Positions 6,274 through 58,945 of a stretch of 64,000 nt of DNA are shown here, piece after piece. The notes beneath the pieces are model-generated. The model was not told the DNA's origin, did no database searches, and saw only the letters and a program-made list of their open reading frames with translations. A program made the position numbers and the translations under genes. Numbering within the stretch: the stretch's first letter is position 1; each line of letters opens with the position of its first letter. Source of the stretch: a virus; the IMG/VR virus record IMGVR_UViG_3300027760_000553, positions 1 to 64,000 of that record; one strand, 5' to 3'.

Positions 6274-6446
6274 TGAAGAAACATGAAGATAAGGCTTGGC
6301 TTGAAGAACAATATGTGGATAATGAGAAATCATTAGATACCCTCGCACAAATGTGTAATGTAGATAAGAAAGTTATTATTAAAGCATTAAACGATTTTAG
6401 GATATACCGTAAATATGATCATACCAAACACCCTAAGCGTTGGTAG
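6273..6446 (+). CDS. small helix-turn-helix protein
   Basis: 57 aa starting in a TAATG overlap. WLEEQYVDNEKSLDTLAQM followed by NVDKKVIIKALNDFRI has the spacing of a short resolvase/homeodomain-like HTH. A similar HTH protein is encoded at 54191-54346. It probably binds DNA. Its 3' end overlaps the convergent gene at 6433 by 14 bp. Confidence 0.65.
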   Translation: MKKHEDKAWLEEQYVDNEKSLDTLAQMCNVDKKVIIKALNDFRIYRKYDHTKHPKRW

Positions 6447-6627
6447 AGCAAGTACAGTTATCGCAGCACTCTTCTTTAAACATTTTTAGTGCCAAACCAT
6501 CATTTTCTGGTCTTCCCAAATCATTCCAAAATATTTCCCTACCCATGTTATCTTTATCAAATATAGGTGTTGACTCAAACTGAAACTCTGGATCCCAGGC
6601 GTTTTCCAAATTGTCTAATATTCCCAT
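6433..6627 (-). CDS. 64-aa hypothetical protein with C-terminal Cys cluster
   Basis: Start at 6627 (MGILDNLENAWDPEFQFE) because TATAAT at 6635-6640 sits seven bases upstream; the ATG at 6636 lies inside that box. The C-terminus EECCDNCTCSTNA could bind metal. The type is common in actinophages, function unknown. Confidence 0.6.
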   Translation of the reverse strand: MGILDNLENAWDPEFQFESTPIFDKDNMGREIFWNDLGRPENDGLALKMFKEECCDNCTCSTNA

Positions 6628-6739
6628 AATGTCCATTATACACCAAATCTGAAAAATTTTAAAAATTGGGTTTTATGAAAATCTGAATATTTTGTCCAAA
6701 TGTATGATACACGATCTAAAAAATAAAACACCAAAAAGA

Positions 6740-6764
6740 TAGTGTGCACATAATATACACACTA
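6740..6764 (-). terminator. intrinsic terminator of the 6778-7315 operon
   Basis: On the minus strand TAGTGTG/CACACTA forms a stem with an 11-base loop followed by TCTTTTT. Confidence 0.65.
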
Positions 6765-6777
6765 CCTAGTAAAGTTG

Positions 6778-6957
6778 TTACACTTTTGTGCCTTGTATCC
6801 ACCCGCTATGGATTCCGACTAGTGGGGCATCTATGCACACCGCTTGTCCTTGATGTAGGGTGGCCTTGTATAATGTGATGAACTCTAATAGATGTTCCTT
6901 AGTATCAAACGACATTTCTTTAGTCGCTCCTGATGTGCTTGTTAGTGTTACTTTCAT
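6778..6957 (-). CDS. 59-aa hypothetical protein
   Basis: MKVTLTSTSGATKEMSFDTK, then a helical middle and an SGWIQGTKV end. The ATG overlaps the upstream stop as ATGA, and the terminator follows. Third gene of a minus operon driven from 7436-7464. No family recognised. Confidence 0.6.
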   Translation of the reverse strand: MKVTLTSTSGATKEMSFDTKEHLLEFITLYKATLHQGQAVCIDAPLVGIHSGWIQGTKV

Positions 6958-7097
6958 TTGTTTCTCTCCTTAGATACGCATTCACATTGTGTTACATTTA
7001 TTGTATCCTTACCTACTGATACATAGGCGATAGTTTCACACTTATCGCATATCCACATACCCGCAATTGGACCTAGTTCATCAAATAGATTTTCCAT
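6954..7097 (-). CDS. 47-aa zinc-ribbon microprotein
   Basis: WICDKCETIAYVSVG and a later QCECVS supply a CxxC...CxC set suited to one zinc ion. It overlaps the next gene by 4 bp and follows the upstream stop by two bases. One of many phage zinc microproteins here; no specific role can be assigned. Confidence 0.65.
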   Translation of the reverse strand: MENLFDELGPIAGMWICDKCETIAYVSVGKDTINVTQCECVSKERNK

Positions 7098-7099
7098 TG

Positions 7100-7315
7100 T
7101 TAGTTACCTACCTTGTTAGCAAATACCCATTTGCTCTCGTTAGGGGATAGGTATTTGTGAGAGATAAGGTTCTCACTTGCTACCATATAGACATATGCCA
7201 TACGGCTAATATAGTTACCATTAGCAAGGCGAAAGATATTGTTATTCTTAGTATTGCTACTAGACATAGGGTGAGTAGGTTCTGCTACTACAGTTATTTC
7301 ATTTAGTGATATCAT
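7100..7315 (-). CDS. 71-aa hypothetical protein
   Basis: Start ATG 7315 follows a GAAAGGG ribosome site. The product is polar (MISLNEITVVAEPTHPMSSS) with a YISRMAYVYMVASENLIS helix. First gene of the minus operon. Not recognised. Confidence 0.6.
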   Translation of the reverse strand: MISLNEITVVAEPTHPMSSSNTKNNNIFRLANGNYISRMAYVYMVASENLISHKYLSPNESKWVFANKVGN

Positions 7316-7435
7316 TTTGATACCCTTTCTTTTATTCGATAACCTTGTGTTATCTTTTTCCTTGACCTAGGTTATTTGCTCTTATTGAGAGGCTCACTAG
7401 GATTTTTCTTACTATTCAATTTTTCTTATACTAGA

Positions 7436-7464
7436 AGTATAGCATAAAAATGTCAAAAAGTCAA
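7436..7464 (-). promoter_or_regulatory. sigma-70-type promoter, minus operon
   Basis: TTGACT, 17-bp spacer, TATACT, reading leftward about 120 bases before ATG 7315. It is divergent from the early promoter at 7629-7651. Confidence 0.75.
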
Positions 7465-7482
7465 GTTTAGACACGGACAAAT

Positions 7483-7602
7483 CGGACATTTTCTATGTGA
7501 TATACACCACACTGATCGGCCAGCCCCCTGTGGATAACTTGTGTATAACTTGTGTATAACTAATGTGATGTATCTCATATGTGACTAATCTCACAATGTC
7601 CG
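7483..7602. promoter_or_regulatory. divergent control region with DnaA-like 9-mers and AATGTCCG boxes
   Basis: The 7316-7707 gap has no gene. It holds an AATGTCCG box in each orientation (7483-7490 reversed, 7595-7602), a GGCCAGC box (7518-7524) and three 9-mers TGTGGATAA, TGTGTATAA, TGTGTATAA at 7529, 7540 and 7551. The exact 11-bp phasing puts all three on one helix face. The 9-mers are reverse complements of DnaA-box sequences. Replication or repression roles are both possible. Confidence 0.6.
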
Positions 7603-7628
7603 AATTGGTATGATTTGTACCCCTGTAA

Positions 7629-7651
7629 ATGTCAGACCCCCCTGCTATACT
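7629..7651 (+). promoter_or_regulatory. early promoter ATGTCAG-N10-TATACT, copy 1
   Basis: One of seven copies with constant 10-base spacing, with TG one base upstream of the -10. It serves the operon starting at 7708. Confidence 0.7.
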
Positions 7652-7707
7652 TACAGTATAAAGAAAAACAAGAGGTAAAGAAATCCTCTAAAGAAAGGTG
7701 GTCTAAA

Positions 7708-7887
7708 ATGACTACACTAGAAATAACAAAGTGCGTAGAGCACACTCCTAATAAATCTGCTATCTCAGAATACGCAGATACACAATTCACATTCTGTGAG
7801 TCTTGTGAAAATAACATTGAGCGTTGGTATAACGATACCGACCCAGAGCGTCTACCTATGTGGACAGAATGGAAGGTGTCTAAGTAA
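7708..7887 (+). CDS. 59-aa zinc microprotein, duplicate A1
   Basis: ATG 7708 follows AAAGAAAGGTGG. It carries FTFCESCENNIERW and ends PMWTEWKVSK. The protein at 8894-9073 is a clear paralogue (FTFCKMCEQNISRFW; DMWSEWKVTN), and the promoters and next genes are duplicated too. The CxxC plus an upstream Cys/His pair may hold zinc. First gene of a seven-gene operon. Confidence 0.7.
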   Translation: MTTLEITKCVEHTPNKSAISEYADTQFTFCESCENNIERWYNDTDPERLPMWTEWKVSK

Positions 7888-8051
7888 TGGCTACTGTAAT
7901 TGACAAAAACGAATTCTATTGGATTTGGGACATCTCGCACTATTGTTGTAATGAAGTACAATTCCGCTACCAATGTAAAGCGCATAGCGAACTAATGGGT
8001 TGCTACTATTGCGAATTTGATTACTCTAAAGAATGTGAGTGTGCCGAATGA
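7887..8051 (+). CDS. 54-aa Cys-rich microprotein, duplicate B1
   Basis: The ATG overlaps the previous stop by one base. It has CC, then C..H, CYYC and CEC motifs. The protein at 9073-9258 is a paralogue (shared CCxExxQ and CxYCxFD...ECEC), so the pair A1-B1 was copied as a unit. Zinc binding is likely; role unknown. Confidence 0.7.
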   Translation: MATVIDKNEFYWIWDISHYCCNEVQFRYQCKAHSELMGCYYCEFDYSKECECAE

Positions 8052-8215
8052 GCATTTGGACTAAATTCGCTACTGTAAACGACTACCCTAAAGGGCTAAT
8101 GAATTTATGCCCTTGCGGTCAAGTGGTATTAGCACCCGCTATGTATCACGAAGGTTTCCCTTGGTGGGAAAACCCTAATAAATGTAAAGAACTATTTGAG
8201 GGAGTAACTAAATGA
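8048..8215 (+). CDS. 55-aa microprotein
   Basis: ATGA overlap with the gene before it. MNLCPCGQVVLAP resembles half a zinc ribbon; PWWENPNKCKELF follows. Not duplicated in the second cassette. Confidence 0.6.
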   Translation: MSIWTKFATVNDYPKGLMNLCPCGQVVLAPAMYHEGFPWWENPNKCKELFEGVTK

Positions 8216-8376
8216 GTACCTATGTACCTATCAAGTCAGTATGCGGTGCGGTTAGCACTACCATTGACATCTATGACTATGACCTAAACCCTAATGGGGT
8301 TGTGTGTTGTGATAATTGCGAAAGCATACTGTTGTGCCGTAAGGCTTGGGATTTCTTGTATAAGGTAGGTAAATAA
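8212..8376 (+). CDS. 54-aa Cys-rich microprotein
   Basis: ATGA overlap. VVCCDNCESILLC gives four closely spaced cysteines, consistent with a small metal site. Operon member, function unknown. Confidence 0.6.
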   Translation: MSTYVPIKSVCGAVSTTIDIYDYDLNPNGVVCCDNCESILLCRKAWDFLYKVGK

Positions 8377-8519
8377 TGCCAGTATTTGAGTTCACTACAT
8401 TCATTGACATTGTTGCCGATAACTATGATGAGGCAATAAACGAATTTGATTTTAAATTAAAATACGGTGACATAGATAGAGGCTCTGTCTATGTCGCAGA
8501 CATTGAGGAGAAAGAATGA
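8376..8519 (+). CDS. 47-aa hypothetical protein
   Basis: TAATG overlap. The short acidic product FIDIVADNYDEAINEFDFKL resembles the small DUF-type proteins with a beta strand and helix that are common in early phage operons. Confidence 0.55.
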   Translation: MPVFEFTTFIDIVADNYDEAINEFDFKLKYGDIDRGSVYVADIEEKE

Positions 8520-8605
8520 AAACACTTCAAGAAAAATTAGATGAAAGCGCAAAAGCGTTAGAACCAATACTTTGGGAATTACTAAATGAAATTGAGGAAA
8601 AATAA
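8516..8605 (+). CDS. 29-aa helical peptide
   Basis: ATGA overlap. MKTLQEKLDESAKALEPIL is amphipathic and ends NEIEEK. The evidence is its tight place in the operon only. Confidence 0.45.
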   Translation: MKTLQEKLDESAKALEPILWELLNEIEEK

Positions 8606-8698
8606 ATGAGTAACTTTTTTATTAGCGGTAATGCTTTATTTTGGTTTTCTTTTATTTGTTTATTCTATGGATCTTATTTATTCGTGAAAGGCGAATAA
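8606..8698 (+). CDS. 30-aa transmembrane peptide
   Basis: It directly follows the previous stop behind GAGGAAAAA. ALFWFSFICLFYGSYLFV is a single membrane segment. Last gene of the operon. Confidence 0.5.
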   Translation: MSNFFISGNALFWFSFICLFYGSYLFVKGE

Positions 8699-8702
8699 AT
8701 TT

Positions 8703-8791
8703 GGCCAGCCAGTTATCCACATGATGCATATCACACCTACGATTTACGCTCAAGTTATCCACATGATGTAAGTCACATTTCAAAATGTCCG
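8703..8791 (+). promoter_or_regulatory. GGCCAGC box, two DnaA-like boxes, AATGTCCG box
   Basis: GGCCAGC (8703-8709) is followed by two copies of AGTTATCCACATGATG (8711, 8753) that contain exact TTATCCACA 9-mers. AATGTCCGTTTTG follows at 8784. This repeats the layout upstream of the first cassette. Confidence 0.6.
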
Positions 8792-8816
8792 TTTTGATAC
8801 GATTACTTGCGGGTAG

Positions 8817-8839
8817 ATGTCAGACCCCTCTGTTATACT
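8817..8839 (+). promoter_or_regulatory. early promoter ATGTCAG-N10-TATACT, copy 2
   Basis: Nearly identical to copy 1 for the whole ATGTCAGACCCC...CTG.TATACTTA stretch. Confidence 0.7.
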
Positions 8840-8893
8840 TACTAGTATAAAGATTGAAAAAGAAGTAAATCTCATAAAGAAAGGAAGTCCAAA

Positions 8894-9073
8894 ATGACTT
8901 CACTAAACACAATAGTATGCGATACGCATACACCTCAAATGTCCGCTATCTCATCTCACAACGATGAGCAATTTACATTCTGCAAAATGTGTGAGCAAAA
9001 TATCTCACGATTTTGGTTAGAATTTGGTGGTGACCGCTTAGATATGTGGTCAGAATGGAAGGTGACTAACTAA
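8894..9073 (+). CDS. 59-aa zinc microprotein, duplicate A2
   Basis: ATG follows AAAGAAAGGAAG. Paralogue of 7708-7887, of equal length, with the CxxC and WSEWKV ends conserved and the middle diverged. This supports an old tandem duplication that kept both reading frames. Confidence 0.7.
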   Translation: MTSLNTIVCDTHTPQMSAISSHNDEQFTFCKMCEQNISRFWLEFGGDRLDMWSEWKVTN

Positions 9074-9258
9074 TGAGTACACCTACACTTATTCTTTCTC
9101 ATATGCCTTTAACAAAAGTTTTCTTGCGTGGCACAAAACAATTCTTGTGTTGCGAGGAAATGCAAACCGCAATTTATTGCGATGAACACTTTGAATTTCA
9201 GGGTTGCCAATATTGCGACTTTGACCTATCTGCCTCAGAATGTGAGTGTGAAAACTAA
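9073..9258 (+). CDS. 61-aa Cys-rich microprotein, duplicate B2
   Basis: TAATG overlap. Its C-terminal half (LCCEEMQ...QGCQYCDFD...ECECEN) matches 7887-8051, while the N-terminus is longer and different. Probable metal site. Confidence 0.7.
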   Translation: MSTPTLILSHMPLTKVFLRGTKQFLCCEEMQTAIYCDEHFEFQGCQYCDFDLSASECECEN

Positions 9259-9371
9259 TGCAAAAAGAAATGATAACTTTATCTTGTCAGATTTGCGAAG
9301 AGCCTACTGTAGAGGTTGCTCTTGAAGATGCAAAACTTTTAACCGCTACTTGTCAAGAATGTTGGGGATAA
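9258..9371 (+). CDS. 37-aa zinc-ribbon peptide
   Basis: TAATG overlap. SCQICEEP and ATCQECWG form a complete CxxC/CxxC knuckle pair 22 residues apart, one of the shortest zinc ribbons in the window. Confidence 0.6.
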   Translation: MQKEMITLSCQICEEPTVEVALEDAKLLTATCQECWG

Positions 9372-9372
9372 A

Positions 9373-9498
9373 ATGTTAAAAGAAATAAAAAATAAAGTAA
9401 TTCGTATTCAAGAATTGCGCCGTAGTAATGCGGCAACACCAATTCCAAATAAAAAAAAATATACTAGAAAAGTAAAACATAAAAATAAATTGCAATAA
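9373..9498 (+). CDS. 41-aa basic peptide, RRSNAA family copy 1
   Basis: It contains ELRRSNAATPIPNKKKYTRK. The 12044 gene carries the near-identical ELRRSNAASAIPNKKNYNRK. The very basic tail suggests nucleic-acid or protein binding. Paralogue pair, function unknown. Confidence 0.6.
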   Translation: MLKEIKNKVIRIQELRRSNAATPIPNKKKYTRKVKHKNKLQ

Positions 9499-9774
9499 AA
9501 AACCCGAGTTGACGCTGGCGCAGACGGCGTGTCGTTTAAGTACAATGTGGTTAAGATCACAGAAATATTTTCCTGAATTACGGCGTGTCGATTTGACTTT
9601 TTGACATTTATCTGGTAGTATTTTCTTATACAATTAAATAAGTAACAAAAACGATGTGACGAAACTCACACTCGTTGAGCGTCTCAAAGGTTGAGATTTT
9701 ATCGCTAGGATTTGATTTCTAGTAATAAAAATGCTAAAATAGATACATAAACAAAAAGAAAGAAGGTTCGCCTA
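9499..9774 (+). promoter_or_regulatory. intergenic control region
   Basis: No gene is seen. It contains GCGTGTCG twice (about 9528 and 9583), which recurs at 10914 and reversed at 14597. It also has TTGACTTTTTGACA stretches and a final TGCTAAAAT (-10-like, about 9733) ahead of an AAAGAAAGAAGG ribosome site for ATG 9775. Confidence 0.4.
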
Positions 9775-9981
9775 ATGGCTACCAAACTATTTACAATAGA
9801 AAACCTACTCGTAGGAAAAACTTATCGCTCACGCTCTCGCCACTTTGAGGGTGAAATCGTATCGGCTACACCTCGCCCAGAAATCTGGTATGGAGAAAAC
9901 ACCGAAGCCTATCTAATCGGCGTATACGCTAAAAATAAATTGTCTACACAATACGCAACTATCGCAGTAAAAACAAAGTAA
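9775..9981 (+). CDS. 68-aa hypothetical protein
   Basis: MATKLFTIENLLVGKTYRSR, then FEGEIVSATPRPEIWYG and a beta-rich end. It looks like a small SH3-like barrel. Strong ribosome site. First gene of a six-gene operon. Confidence 0.6.
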   Translation: MATKLFTIENLLVGKTYRSRSRHFEGEIVSATPRPEIWYGENTEAYLIGVYAKNKLSTQYATIAVKTK

Positions 9982-10003
9982 AAAGAAAGTAGGAAACTAA
10001 CTT

Positions 10004-10186
10004 ATGTATAAACTCACAATAGAAACTTTTAATGGTTCAGTAAAAACCATTCAACTACCCTCAAAGGGTGCGGTTGCTCAGTTCGTATCAACTTACCCAA
10101 CACAATTACCCGTTGGCGTATCCGTAAAAATTGCTTGTGACGCTTTAGGCGTATCAGGAACACTTAGAGGAAAGGCGGTTCTATAA
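10004..10186 (+). CDS. 60-aa hypothetical protein
   Basis: MYKLTIETFNGSVKTIQLPS, then a helix and VSGTLRGKAVL. It has no cysteines or membrane segment. Same operon. Confidence 0.6.
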   Translation: MYKLTIETFNGSVKTIQLPSKGAVAQFVSTYPTQLPVGVSVKIACDALGVSGTLRGKAVL

Positions 10187-10308
10187 TGGGATTTATTGAA
10201 TTCGCTAGAATTGACAATGAAGGCGTGGAGTGGGTAGACTTAGAGTCTGCAACTCCCGCAGAATTACTAGATTTAGAAATTGGACTATTTCAGGAAGGTG
10301 CTATCTAA
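10186..10308 (+). CDS. 40-aa hypothetical protein
   Basis: TAATG overlap on both sides. MGFIEFARIDNEGVEW, then an acidic helix (PAELLDLEIGLFQE). Evidence is coupling and codon use. Confidence 0.55.
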   Translation: MGFIEFARIDNEGVEWVDLESATPAELLDLEIGLFQEGAI

Positions 10309-10463
10309 TGATAAACTCCGTTCTTTCTATTCCCTGCGAGGAATGTCACTCAACAGGTCTTATCTTTTGGGGTAATGACCTTGACTATGATGTCGAAACT
10401 TGCGTATGCGATTTCGGTATGGAACAAGACTTAAATTTATTCAACACCCCCGAAGCAAACTAA
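10308..10463 (+). CDS. 51-aa zinc-ribbon protein
   Basis: The start at ATG 10308 couples to the previous stop; longer frames upstream overlap a real gene and are rejected. PCEECHSTG and TCVCDFG resemble half of a DnaJ-type zinc centre. Confidence 0.65.
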   Translation: MINSVLSIPCEECHSTGLIFWGNDLDYDVETCVCDFGMEQDLNLFNTPEAN

Positions 10464-10482
10464 AGAATAGGAAATAAAATAA

Positions 10483-10689
10483 ATGACTAAAGTAGAACAC
10501 ACACTAAAGTTCGTAACCGAATTTGACGAAACTCACCCAATAGCACAACAAGCACTTGCTCTTGCTCACTCAGATTTAATTGCAATGCTTGAGGGAATGC
10601 TAAAGGACATTCTAGTGCCTTCACTAAAACCAGTGCTTGATGAAATAAATGCTCGTGGCACTTACGCAATTCTAAAGGTGGCAGAATAA
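10483..10689 (+). CDS. 68-aa helical protein
   Basis: All-helical sequence (QQALALAHSDLIAMLEGMLKD). It ends one base before the next start. No family recognised. Confidence 0.55.
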   Translation: MTKVEHTLKFVTEFDETHPIAQQALALAHSDLIAMLEGMLKDILVPSLKPVLDEINARGTYAILKVAE

Positions 10690-10869
10690 ATGATGACACG
10701 CAAGGACTATGTAGCAACTGCTGAAATTCTTTCATCTTTCAAAGATTTGATAGGTGATGAATTTACTTTTCACGATTTAGTTGATGAGTTTGCTTCTATG
10801 TTTGAAGCAGATAATGAACGCTTTGACTCCCAGAAATTTTTTGAAGCGTGTAACAAAAATAATTACTGA
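10690..10869 (+). CDS. 59-aa hypothetical protein
   Basis: MMTRKDYVATAEILSSFKD, then HDLVDEFASMFEADNERF. Short proteins opening MTRKDY with this helical pattern are frequent in actinophage early regions. Followed at once by the 3' hairpin. Confidence 0.6.
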   Translation: MMTRKDYVATAEILSSFKDLIGDEFTFHDLVDEFASMFEADNERFDSQKFFEACNKNNY

Positions 10870-10877
10870 AATGAAAT

Positions 10878-10908
10878 CCTGAGCAAGATCTAAAACTGCT
10901 CAATTTTT
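10878..10908 (+). terminator. conserved 3' hairpin CCTGAGCA...AAACTGCTCA, copy 1
   Basis: A TGAGCA/TGCTCA stem with an 11-base loop followed by ATTTTT, nine bases after the stop codon. One of six copies. Confidence 0.7.
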
Positions 10909-10939
10909 GGCCAGCGTGTCGTCCACAGACTTATCCACA
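10909..10939 (+). promoter_or_regulatory. GGCCAGC box, GCGTGTCG box, DnaA-like box
   Basis: GGCCAGC (10909-10915) runs into GCGTGTCG, then an exact TTATCCACA at 10931-10939. Confidence 0.5.
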
Positions 10940-14570: not shown

Positions 14571-14638
14571 GCCAGCCCATTTTTTATAAATGTCAAGCGA
14601 CACGCCGATGTGTTTAAGATCACACCTAAAAATGTCCA
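14571..14638 (+). promoter_or_regulatory. GCCAGC, CGACACGC and AATGTCC boxes
   Basis: The usual set precedes the next early promoter: TGCCAGC at 14570, CGACACGC near 14598 (reverse of GCGTGTCG), AATGTCCA at 14631. Confidence 0.4.
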
Positions 14639-14670
14639 TATTGTCTATGTTTAACTATCCCGATTTGCAT

Positions 14671-14693
14671 ATGTCAGCCCAGACTGCTACACT
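14671..14693 (+). promoter_or_regulatory. early promoter ATGTCAG-N10-TACACT, copy 7
   Basis: Same spacing, CTGC before the -10; drives GTG 14725. Confidence 0.65.
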
Positions 14694-14724
14694 TAGAATA
14701 TCAACAACAGAAAGAAGGAAAATC

Positions 14725-15747
14725 GTGGCTCACGACTTAGAAACACAAAACGGCAAAACCTCATTCGCATCATTCAGACAACCTGCTTGGCACGGATTAG
14801 GAACAGTCTTTACAGAAGAAAAAACAACCGCAGAAATGTTAGAGGCTGCAAATCTTAATGGGTGGAATGTTCGCCTTGAAGATTTGGAAACCCCTACACA
14901 TCTAACAAGCGACAAGGCATACCAATATGTCTTGCGAACAAACCCTACCGATAACACACAAACCGATATTCTCGGAATCGTTGGTGAGCGTTATCACCCA
15001 TTGCAGAATGAAGACCTATTCTCATTCGGTGATAATATTCTTGACGGTGGTGGTCGTTGGGAAACTGCTGGGTCAATCAAGGGTGGTCGTGTCGTGTTCG
15101 GTGCATTAGCATTAGAGCGTGAAACAATTCTTGACCCTAATGGTGTAAGTGATAAGGTAAAAACTTATTTGCTCATCAACACATCTCACGATGGTTCTAT
15201 TGCTATTCAAGCAAGTATCACACCCGTTCGTGTTGTGTGCGCTAACACTCTCAACCTTGCTCTCGGTGGCGTAGGTCGTAAGAAGAATAAGGGAATCAAG
15301 CAATCATTCAAGATTCGCCACACACAAACCGCTAATGGTAAAGTTCAAATTGCTCGTGAGACTCTTGGTCTTGCTAATGCTTATATGGACGAATTTGATA
15401 TTATGGCTAAGGCTATGATTGAGAAAGAGGTCAATGCGATTGACTTCAACAAAATCATTCTTGCTGCATATCCTAAGCCAGAAAAAGATGCTAAGGGTGC
15501 TTTCAAGAAATGGGAAAACAAGGTAGATGTCATCAACGATATTTACACAGGCGAGTTCAATGGAATGATTGCGGGTAATGCGTGGGGTGCGTTCAATGCA
15601 CTAACTGAGCGCCTTGACTGGTATCGTTCTGCTCGTGGTGGTTCTAACGAATCCATTCTTGCATCAGCATCAGGATTTGACCCTGCTATCAACGCAGAAA
15701 AAAATCGTTTGCTAAAAGTTGTGCAAGGCGTAATGTCTCTCGCATAA
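14725..15747 (+). CDS. DUF932 / TIGR03299-like phage-plasmid protein
   Basis: The start is GTG 14725 behind AGAAAGAAGG; the ATG at 14590 lies before the promoter. 340 aa. Recognisable blocks are SFRQPAWHGLGTVF, DTQTDILGIVGERYHPLQNED, GGGRWETAGSIKGGRVVFGAL and VRVVCANTLNLAL, as in the DUF932 family found on phages and plasmids. Its role is unknown; relatives sit near replication or early genes. It ends just before hairpin copy 5 and the tRNA-Asp gene. Confidence 0.8.
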   Translation: MAHDLETQNGKTSFASFRQPAWHGLGTVFTEEKTTAEMLEAANLNGWNVRLEDLETPTHLTSDKAYQYVLRTNPTDNTQTDILGIVGERYHPLQNEDLFSFGDNILDGGGRWETAGSIKGGRVVFGALALERETILDPNGVSDKVKTYLLINTSHDGSIAIQASITPVRVVCANTLNLALGGVGRKKNKGIKQSFKIRHTQTANGKVQIARETLGLANAYMDEFDIMAKAMIEKEVNAIDFNKIILAAYPKPEKDAKGAFKKWENKVDVINDIYTGEFNGMIAGNAWGAFNALTERLDWYRSARGGSNESILASASGFDPAINAEKNRLLKVVQGVMSLA

Positions 15748-19203: not shown

Positions 19204-19494
19204 ATGGCAATACCAAGTGCAGACAAGGCAGCAATACTATCCCATTTTTGGATGGAATTTAGAGATGACGAAGTACTAAAAGATTTTGTAGAGTTTAACG
19301 ATATGGGATTACCCCTAGCATTTTTTGTGGCAACTGGAATTGTACAAGATACTCCAATGTCAGAGGAATATATATCTGAAACCTTTAATTTATTTTTAGT
19401 TGCGTTAGAGATTGAAGAAGAAGAGATAGATGGGTTAGATAACCTTAATGACATTTTAGACTATGCAAGATCTAAAAAAGAAGGCGACATCTAA
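19204..19494 (+). CDS. 96-aa helical protein
   Basis: DKAAILSHFWMEFRDDEVLKD, then PLAFFVATGIVQDTPMSEEYI. Conserved style among actinophages, no function known. Last gene before the origin-like region. Confidence 0.6.
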   Translation: MAIPSADKAAILSHFWMEFRDDEVLKDFVEFNDMGLPLAFFVATGIVQDTPMSEEYISETFNLFLVALEIEEEEIDGLDNLNDILDYARSKKEGDI

Positions 19495-19567
19495 CAAGTT
19501 TAGCACACATCTTGCTATCGCAGGAGGGTGGGGCTGGCCACACTATATCATGTCAAACCACATTTGT

Positions 19568-19671
19568 CAAACCTTATTACGATGGATGTAAAAATTTTCC
19601 AGATTCTTGCCCAAACCTTATTACGAAGAGTCTAAATTTTTCCAGATTCCTAGCCAAACCTTATATCATAC
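19568..19671 (+). repeat. 44-bp tandem repeats (2 full plus 1 partial)
   Basis: Units begin at 19568, 19612 and 19656. The first two share CAAACCTTATTACGA and a second block TTTTCCAGATTC. Confidence 0.8.
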
Positions 19672-19707
19672 AAACCTTTATTTGTCAAACAGGTGTATAA
19701 TAATCTT

Positions 19708-19920
19708 ATGAGCCCAAGACATATGTCAAGAATGCTATATCCAAAAATGGCAAAACAAGAAGATAAAGGTTTGGAACAAGTCTTTACTTCCTTTACTGTT
19801 CTTATAGGGTTGGGTAGATACTTTTCTCCAGATCCCGTCGTGGCAATGTCTAATAAGACTATCGAAGATCCCGAAGCGGGACGGGATCAAAAGATAAACC
19901 ACTCTTCCCTATATAACTAA
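19708..19920 (+). CDS. 70-aa hypothetical protein inside the origin-like region
   Basis: Leaderless layout: TATAAT (19696-19701), six bases, ATG. MSPRHMSRMLYPKMAKQEDK, then LIGLGRYFSPDPVVAMSN. A GATCCCG/CGGGATC hairpin (19867-19888) lies within the frame. It may be a real small protein or an open frame across regulatory DNA. Confidence 0.45.
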   Translation: MSPRHMSRMLYPKMAKQEDKGLEQVFTSFTVLIGLGRYFSPDPVVAMSNKTIEDPEAGRDQKINHSSLYN

Positions 19921-20066
19921 TACCTGATATACAAACACTTTTATCCAAACATTATTTTCTGATGTTTTGGATATTTTTTATATCTTTTTAAATAAAATAT
20001 TACGATAATCAAACATTTTTCCCCAAATTTGGATATTTTTTTATATGGTTTTTGGGCTATAAAGGT

Positions 20067-20095
20067 TTGACAAATAAGGGGTTTGGGTATATAAT
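20067..20095 (+). promoter_or_regulatory. consensus sigma-70 promoter in origin region
   Basis: TTGACA, 17 bp, TATAAT: a perfect consensus, with iteron cores overlapping the -35 and spacer. No ORF follows for 250 bases. Confidence 0.8.
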
Positions 20096-20112
20096 GCATA
20101 GCCCATATAGAG

Positions 20113-20141
20113 TTGACAAAGGTTTGGATATGTGGTATAAG
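20113..20141 (+). promoter_or_regulatory. second promoter in origin region
   Basis: TTGACA, 17 bp, TATAAG, again overlapping iteron cores. It could make a primer or control RNA. Confidence 0.65.
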
Positions 20142-20325
20142 GTTTGGGGATAGGGGGTTTGGGGCCCCTGGGATTACGACGCCCTTCTATAAATGCTCCA
20201 TTCTCCACTATCCTCCACTTCACTCCACTATTAGAATGTCAAACAACATAATCAGTAACATTTATTTGTGGATAAACCTGTGTATAACTAACATTTTCAG
20301 GGTATTGACATGTGGATAACTTTCG

Positions 20326-20354
20326 TTGACATCCTATCCAAACCAGTGTATACT
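20326..20354 (+). promoter_or_regulatory. leaderless promoter for 20361
   Basis: TTGACA, 17 bp, TATACT, six bases, ATG. Confidence 0.8.
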
Positions 20355-20360
20355 TGAAGT

Positions 20361-20474
20361 ATGAACATATATAAAATCTCATTGTTAGATTACGACAGAG
20401 CATTCGATCTAGAAATGTTTGCCTCAACCGAAGAAGAAGCCAAGCAAATGGCTATGAGAGAAGAACCACATATG
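20361..20474 (+). CDS. 37-aa hypothetical protein
   Basis: Leaderless start. MNIYKISLLDYDRAFDLEMF, then an ASTEEEAKQMA helix. The strand-helix pattern is common in phage microproteins. Confidence 0.5.
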
Positions 20475-21047: not shown

Positions 21048-21076
21048 TTGACTTCCCCGTCAAAAATTGCTATACT
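21048..21076 (+). promoter_or_regulatory. leaderless promoter for 21083
   Basis: TTGACT, 17 bp, TATACT, six bases, ATG. Confidence 0.8.
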
Positions 21077-21082
21077 TAAGGT

Positions 21083-21289
21083 ATGATCAATATGCAAATC
21101 CCTGATCCATTTCAAACCTTTGTAGCCAAAAAATATGCTAATGCCAAAGGCTATGTTCATGATTGGTTTACTGGTGAATGGTCTTATACTTGCTCTACTT
21201 GTAAGGAAGATCTTTTTGGTCCATCCCGCAAAATTCTGACAAAGATCAGGCTATATCATACAAGAAATGAGTGCTTAGGTGGCTACTAA
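21083..21289 (+). CDS. 68-aa zinc-binding protein
   Basis: SYTCSTCKEDLFGPS and a C-terminal YHTRNEC give C..C..H..C ligands. First gene of a small zinc-protein operon. Confidence 0.6.
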   Translation: MINMQIPDPFQTFVAKKYANAKGYVHDWFTGEWSYTCSTCKEDLFGPSRKILTKIRLYHTRNECLGGY

Positions 21290-56394: not shown

Positions 56395-57170
56395 TAAAAA
56401 TCATCTCCAATTACTCCGTCTTTCATACCATCCTGATGATAAAGATTCCACGCTGCTTTAAATTCTGGCAAATAGTTTAAAGAATTTGTGTAAGCACTTC
56501 TTTTTTCTGGATATGTGTATGCATCTAGTGGATTCATTTCTCCAGTAAACCTATAGTTAGTTATTGGACAATAGTCCATGCTAACAATCTCAAGAAACTC
56601 GCCATCTTTAAATTTGCGCTTTGGTCTCCAGTGAACCTGATTGACTGCACTGAAAACTATTGTTTGCCCAGGCTCTAGTGTATATCTTGTAAAGGTGGTC
56701 CCGTCTTCTTGGTTTCCAATATAAAGATCCCACTCAATGTTTCCATCAACACAGTGATTAATAGTTATTAGATTTTCATCTGCGTCTATATGTGGAGGCA
56801 ACTTTGGACTATTATTTCCATTGCCATACTTTTTATTATATTCAATATAGTTATAATGACATAGAGCAACATCTCCATCATAAATTGGTTTTGCAATATT
56901 GTCTAGTTTTTCTTCTAAGTTTTTGGGCATCTGAAACTCAACAAGCACTCTTGACATATACTCAATTGTTTTTGGTCTAAACCTATCCCAATTTTTTTCA
57001 CTAGTCTGCTCATTTGGTTTATGCACAACTGGATCTAGCATATTTTTATTTTGATAAATAATATCCATTAACTGTTTTGATTCAGCATCAGTAAATAAAT
57101 TATCTACATAAAATGGAACTTTTGTTTTATATTTATTAAAATCAGTTAGGTACTTGTGAATTTCAGCCAT
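56394..57170 (-). CDS. 2OG-Fe(II) oxygenase-like, QVHWRP family
   Basis: 258 aa. KLPPHIDADENLITINH carries HxD and FSAVNQVHWRPKRKFKDGEF the distal His and Arg. The next gene (57173) carries the same block. Shares a base with the 56092 gene. In the replication block, suggesting a nucleic-acid or nucleotide substrate, which is a guess. Confidence 0.75.
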   Translation of the reverse strand: MAEIHKYLTDFNKYKTKVPFYVDNLFTDAESKQLMDIIYQNKNMLDPVVHKPNEQTSEKNWDRFRPKTIEYMSRVLVEFQMPKNLEEKLDNIAKPIYDGDVALCHYNYIEYNKKYGNGNNSPKLPPHIDADENLITINHCVDGNIEWDLYIGNQEDGTTFTRYTLEPGQTIVFSAVNQVHWRPKRKFKDGEFLEIVSMDYCPITNYRFTGEMNPLDAYTYPEKRSAYTNSLNYLPEFKAAWNLYHQDGMKDGVIGDDF

Positions 57171-57851: not shown

Positions 57852-58136
57852 TTATACACCATCTAGAATTTGATCTAATAAATCAAATTCCAGTATAGCA
57901 AGTCTAACTTTTGTATTTCCAGAGCCAAGAACAACTATTATTAACGGATCGCTATTATTTTTAATTGCATCTGTTGTGGCCTTTGCCCATACATCTTTAT
58001 TTAATGTGAAAGACTTTGAAGCCTCTTTAAAATCTACAGTAAAGTTTTGCCATGTTGCATCACCTTTATGTGTGTTTCTGCCAGAATTCTTGTGCTGTTT
58101 TGCACCAATTCTTTTTGACTCACTCTTTTCTGTCAT
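57852..58136 (-). CDS. PD-(D/E)XK-like nuclease
   Basis: 94 aa. RIGAKQHKNSGRNTHKGDATWQNFTVDFKEASKSF has GDA and D-x-K spaced as in small Holliday-junction-type nucleases. It is short for the family. Overlaps the oxygenase gene upstream. Confidence 0.55.
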   Translation of the reverse strand: MTEKSESKRIGAKQHKNSGRNTHKGDATWQNFTVDFKEASKSFTLNKDVWAKATTDAIKNNSDPLIIVVLGSGNTKVRLAILEFDLLDQILDGV

Positions 58137-58767
58137 TTGTTTCTATCTGACTGTCAATACCAGTGTCCATCATTAAAGCACGAGTTCTTTTTTCTAATAT
58201 CGCTACATGATTTTCTTGAAGAGGTCTATCATTTTTATATGCAAGATGACAAAACATCATATCAATTTTTGTATCTTGTCCTATACGTTTATCTTCTCTC
58301 CAGTGCATCTGTTGGCTTCCCGCAAAGATCAAAGCATCATTGTAGTTTAGATTGTATTGATTACCCTCTACTATAATTCCCCAATTTTCATTTGACTCTA
58401 GTTGAATATCACAAGTTATTCTTTGTGATTTTTTTGTATCATAATGTGGAAACAATTTGCACTTATAGCCATATTCTTCTGAGTATCTAGCAAAAGAGTA
58501 TTCCGCCATAATCATTTCTTCACCAACTATTTGCGATACTCTTTTTTCTATTTGCGAAATAACATCCTTTGAAAATTTGGTATGATAGGCTTTATGCCCA
58601 GCCCAAGGCTGAGTTATTGTTTGGGAGTCATCTGTTTGAGCAACCTTATAGTATATTTCTGCAATATGCTCATCAGATAAAATGTTTTCAATTTGTACAA
58701 CAGGAAAATCTTGATTGTCAATAAAGTCTTCTGCTTTTGTTTTTGTATACATAGGAAAATTATTCAT
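58120..58767 (-). CDS. 2OG-Fe(II) oxygenase-like, HWRE family
   Basis: Start MNNFPMYTKT at 58767: TATAAT (58774-58779), six bases, ATG. KLFPHYDTKKSQRITCD (HxD) and FAGSQQMHWREDKRIGQD. Fourth member of this paralogous set. Confidence 0.75.
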   Translation of the reverse strand: MNNFPMYTKTKAEDFIDNQDFPVVQIENILSDEHIAEIYYKVAQTDDSQTITQPWAGHKAYHTKFSKDVISQIEKRVSQIVGEEMIMAEYSFARYSEEYGYKCKLFPHYDTKKSQRITCDIQLESNENWGIIVEGNQYNLNYNDALIFAGSQQMHWREDKRIGQDTKIDMMFCHLAYKNDRPLQENHVAILEKRTRALMMDTGIDSQIETNDRKE

Positions 58768-58774
58768 AGTACTA

Positions 58775-58945
58775 TTATACCTCAAAATCTTTTTTAGTTT
58801 TTTTGCCTAAATATACAGTAGTTAGGTGCTTATCCTTACACATCCAAGTCAATGTTTTTGTTTCAGCATAACATCTTAATGTTGGCACTGTAGTTTTACA
58901 TGTGTGACAAATCCATTGACCGTGATAAACAGTATAACTAGCCAT
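58775..58945 (-). CDS. 56-aa zinc-ribbon protein
   Basis: MASYTVYHGQWICHTCKTTV and TWMCKDKHLTTV supply CxxC plus C/H. It overlaps the RecA-like gene end. Recurrent beside recA in actinophages as I recall. Confidence 0.65.
   Translation of the reverse strand: MASYTVYHGQWICHTCKTTVPTLRCYAETKTLTWMCKDKHLTTVYLGKKTKKDFEV

Follow-up and report, generated by a model that had tools for sequence, protein, structure and literature searches.

The window analysed here, 64 kb (64,000 nucleotides) in full length, comes from a virus record of 99,582 bases in which the minus strand carries the late and replication genes and the plus strand the small genes. Genes for a DnaB-type helicase, a primase, a single-strand-binding protein and a DnaE-type polymerase are located on the minus strand, at 59.9–66.3 kb of the record. 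The region under study is the gap between a gene ending at 19494 and a gene starting at 20361, and it contains 11 copies of CAAACC/GGTTTG, four outward sigma70-type promoters, a small leaderless gene, an AT-rich tract and three DnaA boxes (see the table). The original prediction had read it as a replication origin with 44-bp iterons, lying where the density of small genes changes. The gene layout does change here, at the same place as the predicted edge of a direct terminal repeat (DTR). Promoters with a -10 about six bases before an ATG were also observed at 20349–20363 and 21069–21085, the small genes there being apparently leaderless. Leaderless genes are common in actinobacteria. Further along the window, the proteins encoded at 56397–57170 and 58123–58785 both match PHROG 2954 ('ferrochelatase'), weakly.

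Features of the gap and of the predicted terminal repeat (window coordinates; a slash within a DTR-edge motif marks the cut)
Feature	Position	Strand	Remark
Predicted left DTR edge, ATGTATG/ATACA	6706–6707		Motif at deposited repeat ends of NootNoot, BillNye, Comrade and Wakanda
Leftward sigma70-type promoter PL2, TTGACA-17-TATAGT	19542–19570	minus	GGTTTG in spacer
Left CAAACC array (sites 19554, 19568, 19612, 19655, 19671)	19554–19676	plus	71/73 loci; 8-bp phase
Two 44-bp tandem units, each CAAACC, ATTACGA and TTTTCCAGA	19568–19655	plus	
Polar bipartite element 1, TTACGA at 19577	19576–19600	plus	
Polar bipartite element 2, TTACGA at 19621	19620–19643	plus	
Leftward promoter PL1, TTGACA-17-TATAAG	19660–19688	minus	Position conserved
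Conserved small leaderless gene, MSPRH..., 70 aa	19708–19920	plus	Extended -10 at 19696–19701
Hairpin GATCCCGTC/GACGGGATC, inside the small gene	19831–19889		z -3.56
AT-rich tract, candidate unwinding element	19921–20062		Composition only
Polar bipartite element 3, TTACGA at 20000, within AT-rich tract	19999–20022	plus	
Right GGTTTG array (sites 20064, 20080, 20121, 20141, 20156)	20064–20161	minus	
Rightward promoter PR1, exact TTGACA-17-TATAAT	20067–20095	plus	
Rightward promoter PR2, TTGACA-17-TATAAG	20113–20141	plus	
Last ATTACGA copy and stretch to predicted terminus	20173–20198	plus	Near -100 to -75 in most of 147 loci
Predicted right DTR edge, TGCTC/CATTCTCCAC	20198–20199		By homology to C/HATTACAYAC of BE phages
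CTCCACT repeats	20203–20229	plus	CTCCAC here in 144/165 loci
Near-invariant ATCAGTAANAT, the anchor	20251–20261	plus	Invariant except N in 23 aligned loci; chosen as anchor, so not independent
Three DnaA boxes, at 20267, 20279 and 20311	20267–20319	minus	

The product of the leaderless gene has 21 distinct homologous proteins and gave no match in Pfam and PHROG searches. The start of the gene, five codons long (MSPRH), does not vary among the aligned homologues whereas the remainder does; this invariance is partly by construction, as the search pattern required the start. The GATCCCG/CGGGATC hairpin of the original prediction is real but sits within this gene. At its place, relatives have a GC-richer island whose sequence differs in those read. 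A conserved RNA structure in the right-hand block was rejected (8 pairs, negligible covariation), and no Rfam family other than tRNA was found.

Relatives were gathered by a search with the DUF932 protein (14590–15747), which gave 80 viral loci, 73 of them with enough sequence downstream of the DUF932 gene. At least eight CAAACC/GGTTTG copies within 750 bp were found 2.5–4.7 kb after this gene in 71 of the 73. With the contigs added when the right-hand block was used as a scan pattern, the total rose to about 165 distinct viral contigs; the loci are related to each other, so these counts do not represent independent events. Absence of the repeats from close relatives, the objection foreseen in the original prediction, was thus not what we found. 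BLASTN of the region against phages gave no match. One contig, binned as a Chitinophagaceae MAG (L258), holds the right-hand block and looks like a misbinned phage contig because the whole array is present.

CAAACC occurs five times on the plus strand (19554–19671) and six times on the minus strand (19768–20156), confirming the arrangement of direct copies on the left and inverted copies on the right. Compared with these 11 copies in 650 bp, the densest 650-bp stretch in each of 60 simulated 64-kb sequences had 2.8 copies on average and never more than 5, and none of 3000 local simulations reached 11. The clustering is real and far beyond chance. The 44-bp iterons fared less well: tandem units sharing CAAACC, ATTACGA and TTTTCCAGA exist, but the two copies agree at only 70% and the third is partial. 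We rejected the 44-bp unit as the iteron since it is not preserved in relatives, which have other periods; in these, TTACGA copies most often lie 34 or 36 bp apart and show a periodicity of about 10.6 bp.

The conserved unit is instead a strictly one-way bipartite element, ATTACGA-N10..12-TTTTCC. Across 147 regions, TTACGA was counted 670 times on the plus strand and twice on the minus strand (4.56 versus 0.01 per region). The full element is found 342 times versus 0 by strand, at a density about 114-fold that elsewhere. The second half, TT[TC]1-3CC, ends 17–19 nt past TTACGA in 268 of the 439 distinct copies, whereas it is found anywhere within 42 bp in 4.7% of control windows. We read this element as a putative initiator site.

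CAAACC/GGTTTG looks like a separate, promoter-associated second array and a putative regulator site. In the relatives' regions, CAAACC sites are preferentially spaced at multiples of about 8 bp from one another. One lineage has switched array-wide from CAAACC to CAAACA (0 versus 18 copies), as would be anticipated if a trans-acting protein read the site. The exact TTGACA-17-TATAAT promoter of the original prediction and its rightward companion (PR1 and PR2) were recovered, and two mirror-image leftward promoters (PL2 and PL1) had been overlooked. The statement that no gene follows the promoters holds for the rightward pair only, as the leaderless gene lies inside the region. All four promoters diverge outward, with GGTTTG inside and beside their spacers in mirror image. 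Over 62 loci, leftward promoters are enriched at -800 to -500 from the anchor, and 76 rightward promoters fall at -300 to -100.

Such an arrangement could serve a phage regulator as a set of operators over divergent early promoters, with no origin involved. The conserved divergence of the promoters and the placement of the boxes agree with this, and the 8-bp phase fits a tandem-binding regulator. The one-way ATTACGA elements, the AT-rich tract and the DnaA boxes would nevertheless be left unexplained, and several lineages drop the CAAACC/GGTTTG array yet retain ATTACGA and DnaA boxes. Transcriptional control on its own seems quite unlikely to us; it probably applies in addition to an origin, not instead of one.

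Averaged over loci, the AT content is maximal (78%) at -300 to -250 from the anchor, beside the rightward promoters, in line with the highly AT-rich centre first described. The three DnaA-like 9-mers also hold, as TTATCCACA/TTATACACA; TTATNCACA is present 14 times in the window versus 4.9 expected. The boxes keep fixed offsets (+17 in 55/62 loci, +28/29 in 54/62), and at least two lie near the anchor in 55/62 loci, figures quoted from the earlier 62-locus set only, as the later scan pattern itself contains one DnaA box. Some lineages have no DnaA boxes at the region, for example L045. A second DnaA-box zone extends over 6314–10939, partly within and partly flanking the left half of the predicted DTR, with three tandem boxes at 7529–7559. 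At least three boxes were found in the matching 6 kb of 31 of 34 relatives, with a mean of 3.97 against 0.62 and 0.23 in control stretches. DnaA boxes are therefore not unique to the candidate origin, and the second zone possibly contains promoters under DnaA control, titrates DnaA or acts as a second origin.

The original prediction included no terminal repeat. Homology leads us to predict a DTR of about 13.5 kb, from 6707 to about 20198, with a terminase cut inside the region; the DTRs of the BE phages used measure 10.7–12.2 kb. The near edge reads C/HATTACAYAC in five BE phages and C/CATTCTCCAC at the homologous place of the window. ATTACAC occurs in 6 of 165 loci, and one contig (L156) bridges the two forms with TTTGCTC/CATTACACAC. 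The far-edge motif, ATGTATG/ATA-N~32-AGTG.GC.CATA, has a single match in the window, at 6703; it also marks the repeat ends deposited for four Streptomyces phages and recurs in 18 related contigs. With these edges, the DTR would include the CAAACC and ATTACGA arrays and stop just short of the DnaA boxes. The metagenomic record has no end repeats, which is how a collapsed repeat would look.

Among cultured phages, Streptomyces phages of the Stanwilliamsviridae are the nearest (DnaE 54%, DUF932 51%). Six that were examined have one non-coding gap each, with exact TTATCCACA boxes and with 21 TTACGA cores in one orientation and none in the other, against about 3.7 expected. The gap lies at 119171–120507 in BillNye and at 119911–121187 in NootNoot. 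The gaps of NootNoot, Daubenski, Enygma, MindFlayer, MulchMansion, BillNye, Wakanda and Comrade resemble that of the window in their many one-way TTTACGA cores, in a CC-containing half about 17 nt on and in exact TTATCCACA boxes. Unlike the window, they have other repeats in place of the CAAACC/GGTTTG array. In the records read, their annotation is limited to empty or hypothetical. The BE phages NootNoot, Daubenski and Enygma have their deposited terminus inside the gap, about 60–95 bp from the DnaA boxes, and MindFlayer and MulchMansion give the same picture with their published DTR lengths (PMC10690885). The satellites MiniFlayer and MulchRoom, which are said to be without key replication genes, served as an independent origin test with a negative outcome: they have neither the array nor a DnaA-box cluster, and this counts against an origin.

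These termini bear on the possibility that the region serves packaging only, the polar elements being terminase recognition sites and replication starting elsewhere. The terminus of five BE phages lies within the homologous region, and in MindFlayer and MulchMansion a TTACGA copy starts 27 nt before the cut. In the three Loccivirinae examined, however, a similar cut motif in Comrade and Wakanda and the deposited end of BillNye (about 4 kb away) stand 4–6 kb from the gap, where the elements (three TTACGA copies in each phage) and the DnaA boxes are still together, an arrangement that speaks for an origin rather than for packaging. Neither DnaA boxes nor an unwinding-type tract would be expected at a packaging site, and no such array accompanies the other DTR edge. 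We consider a role in packaging alone unlikely.

The repeats might also be a parS-like partition centromere of an extrachromosomal prophage, given that RedRock parS loci carry an 8-bp motif in eight direct copies (PMC7157519) and that GGTTTG is 8-bp phased. Mycobacterial prophage origins and this parS share with the region an actinobacterial phage setting, promoters without a following gene and 8-bp repeats, but they serve extrachromosomal prophages with ParABS. Here, ParA-type (PF13614), ParB_N, RHH_1 and phage-integrase families were all without a match in the 99.6-kb record, which is possibly incomplete, and the literature describes the cultured BE relatives as virulent (PMC10690885). A partition system and an integrase were rejected since the families tested gave no match, among them the ParA and ParB expected with a parS. 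A centromere appears extremely improbable.

On balance, the region is probably a replication origin of iteron/DnaA type with the predicted right DTR edge inside it. This reading is the best supported because it explains the whole layout, polar elements, AT-rich tract and DnaA boxes occurring together in about 165 contigs and, in outline, in distant Streptomyces phages. The origin of the original prediction is partly supported, with a different iteron, the bipartite ATTACGA element, and with no turn in GC skew. The skew, suggested as a check and named in the original refuting condition, does not change sign at the region, which counts against an origin, though in this genome it follows gene orientation; we rejected it as an origin marker. 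No Rep family turned up among the nearby proteins scanned, and no iteron-binding initiator was identified. An HTH-type protein is encoded beside the DnaB-like helicase at 66838–67380 of the record (L002:2838–3380), outside the window. It is 88–100% identical among the 80 relatives kept and present in 125 Streptomyces phage records; its predicted fold is uninformative (pLDDT 41), and a search for PDB relatives returned none significant. It is a possible candidate initiator, and the DUF932 protein is another candidate for binding the array.

From the layout, we infer the following course of binding, melting and initiation. A phage-encoded initiator would bind the one-way bipartite elements, and DnaA, presumably the host's, would bind its boxes. 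The AT-rich tract would then melt, and the phage DnaB-type helicase, primase, single-strand-binding protein and DnaE-type polymerase would assemble on it. The GGTTTG boxes, with their 8-bp phase, may be occupied by a second DNA-binding protein that controls the divergent promoters, and thereby both the transcription leaving the origin and that of the leaderless gene. Terminase would cut concatemers late in infection, at about 20198/20199 and at 6706/6707.

The region shares direct repeats, an AT-rich unwinding tract (here by composition only) and DnaA boxes with the iteron plasmid origins of RK2, P1, F and pSC101 (PMC4980987). It differs from them in having no linked rep gene found, a longer, bipartite and widely spaced unit, a second, 8-bp-phased array, and a position at the predicted DTR boundary of a phage of about 100 kb. 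As no cognate rep gene was found among the nearby proteins scanned, we describe it as working like an iteron-type theta origin rather than as a member of that class. The origins of ICP1 and PLE likewise have repeats in non-coding DNA, required for replication in PLE (PMC7145576), but were mapped by coverage and mutation, whereas the present region is known from sequence alone.

Mycobacteriophage replication systems have been termed not well characterised (PMC7157519), and no described origin for Stanwilliamsviridae turned up in an open-access library. More speculatively, the origin and the terminase cut site could be functionally fused, one element coupling initiation to end formation, although we regard this as doubtful. 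If true, firing beside the inner DTR edge would duplicate the repeat for packaging, in a phage family and its uncultured relatives. The terminal repeats of many uncultured phages may also be predictable from their sequence. As a conserved, closely delimited candidate origin that has a polar element and whose outline is shared by culturable Streptomyces phages, the region is open to testing in the laboratory.
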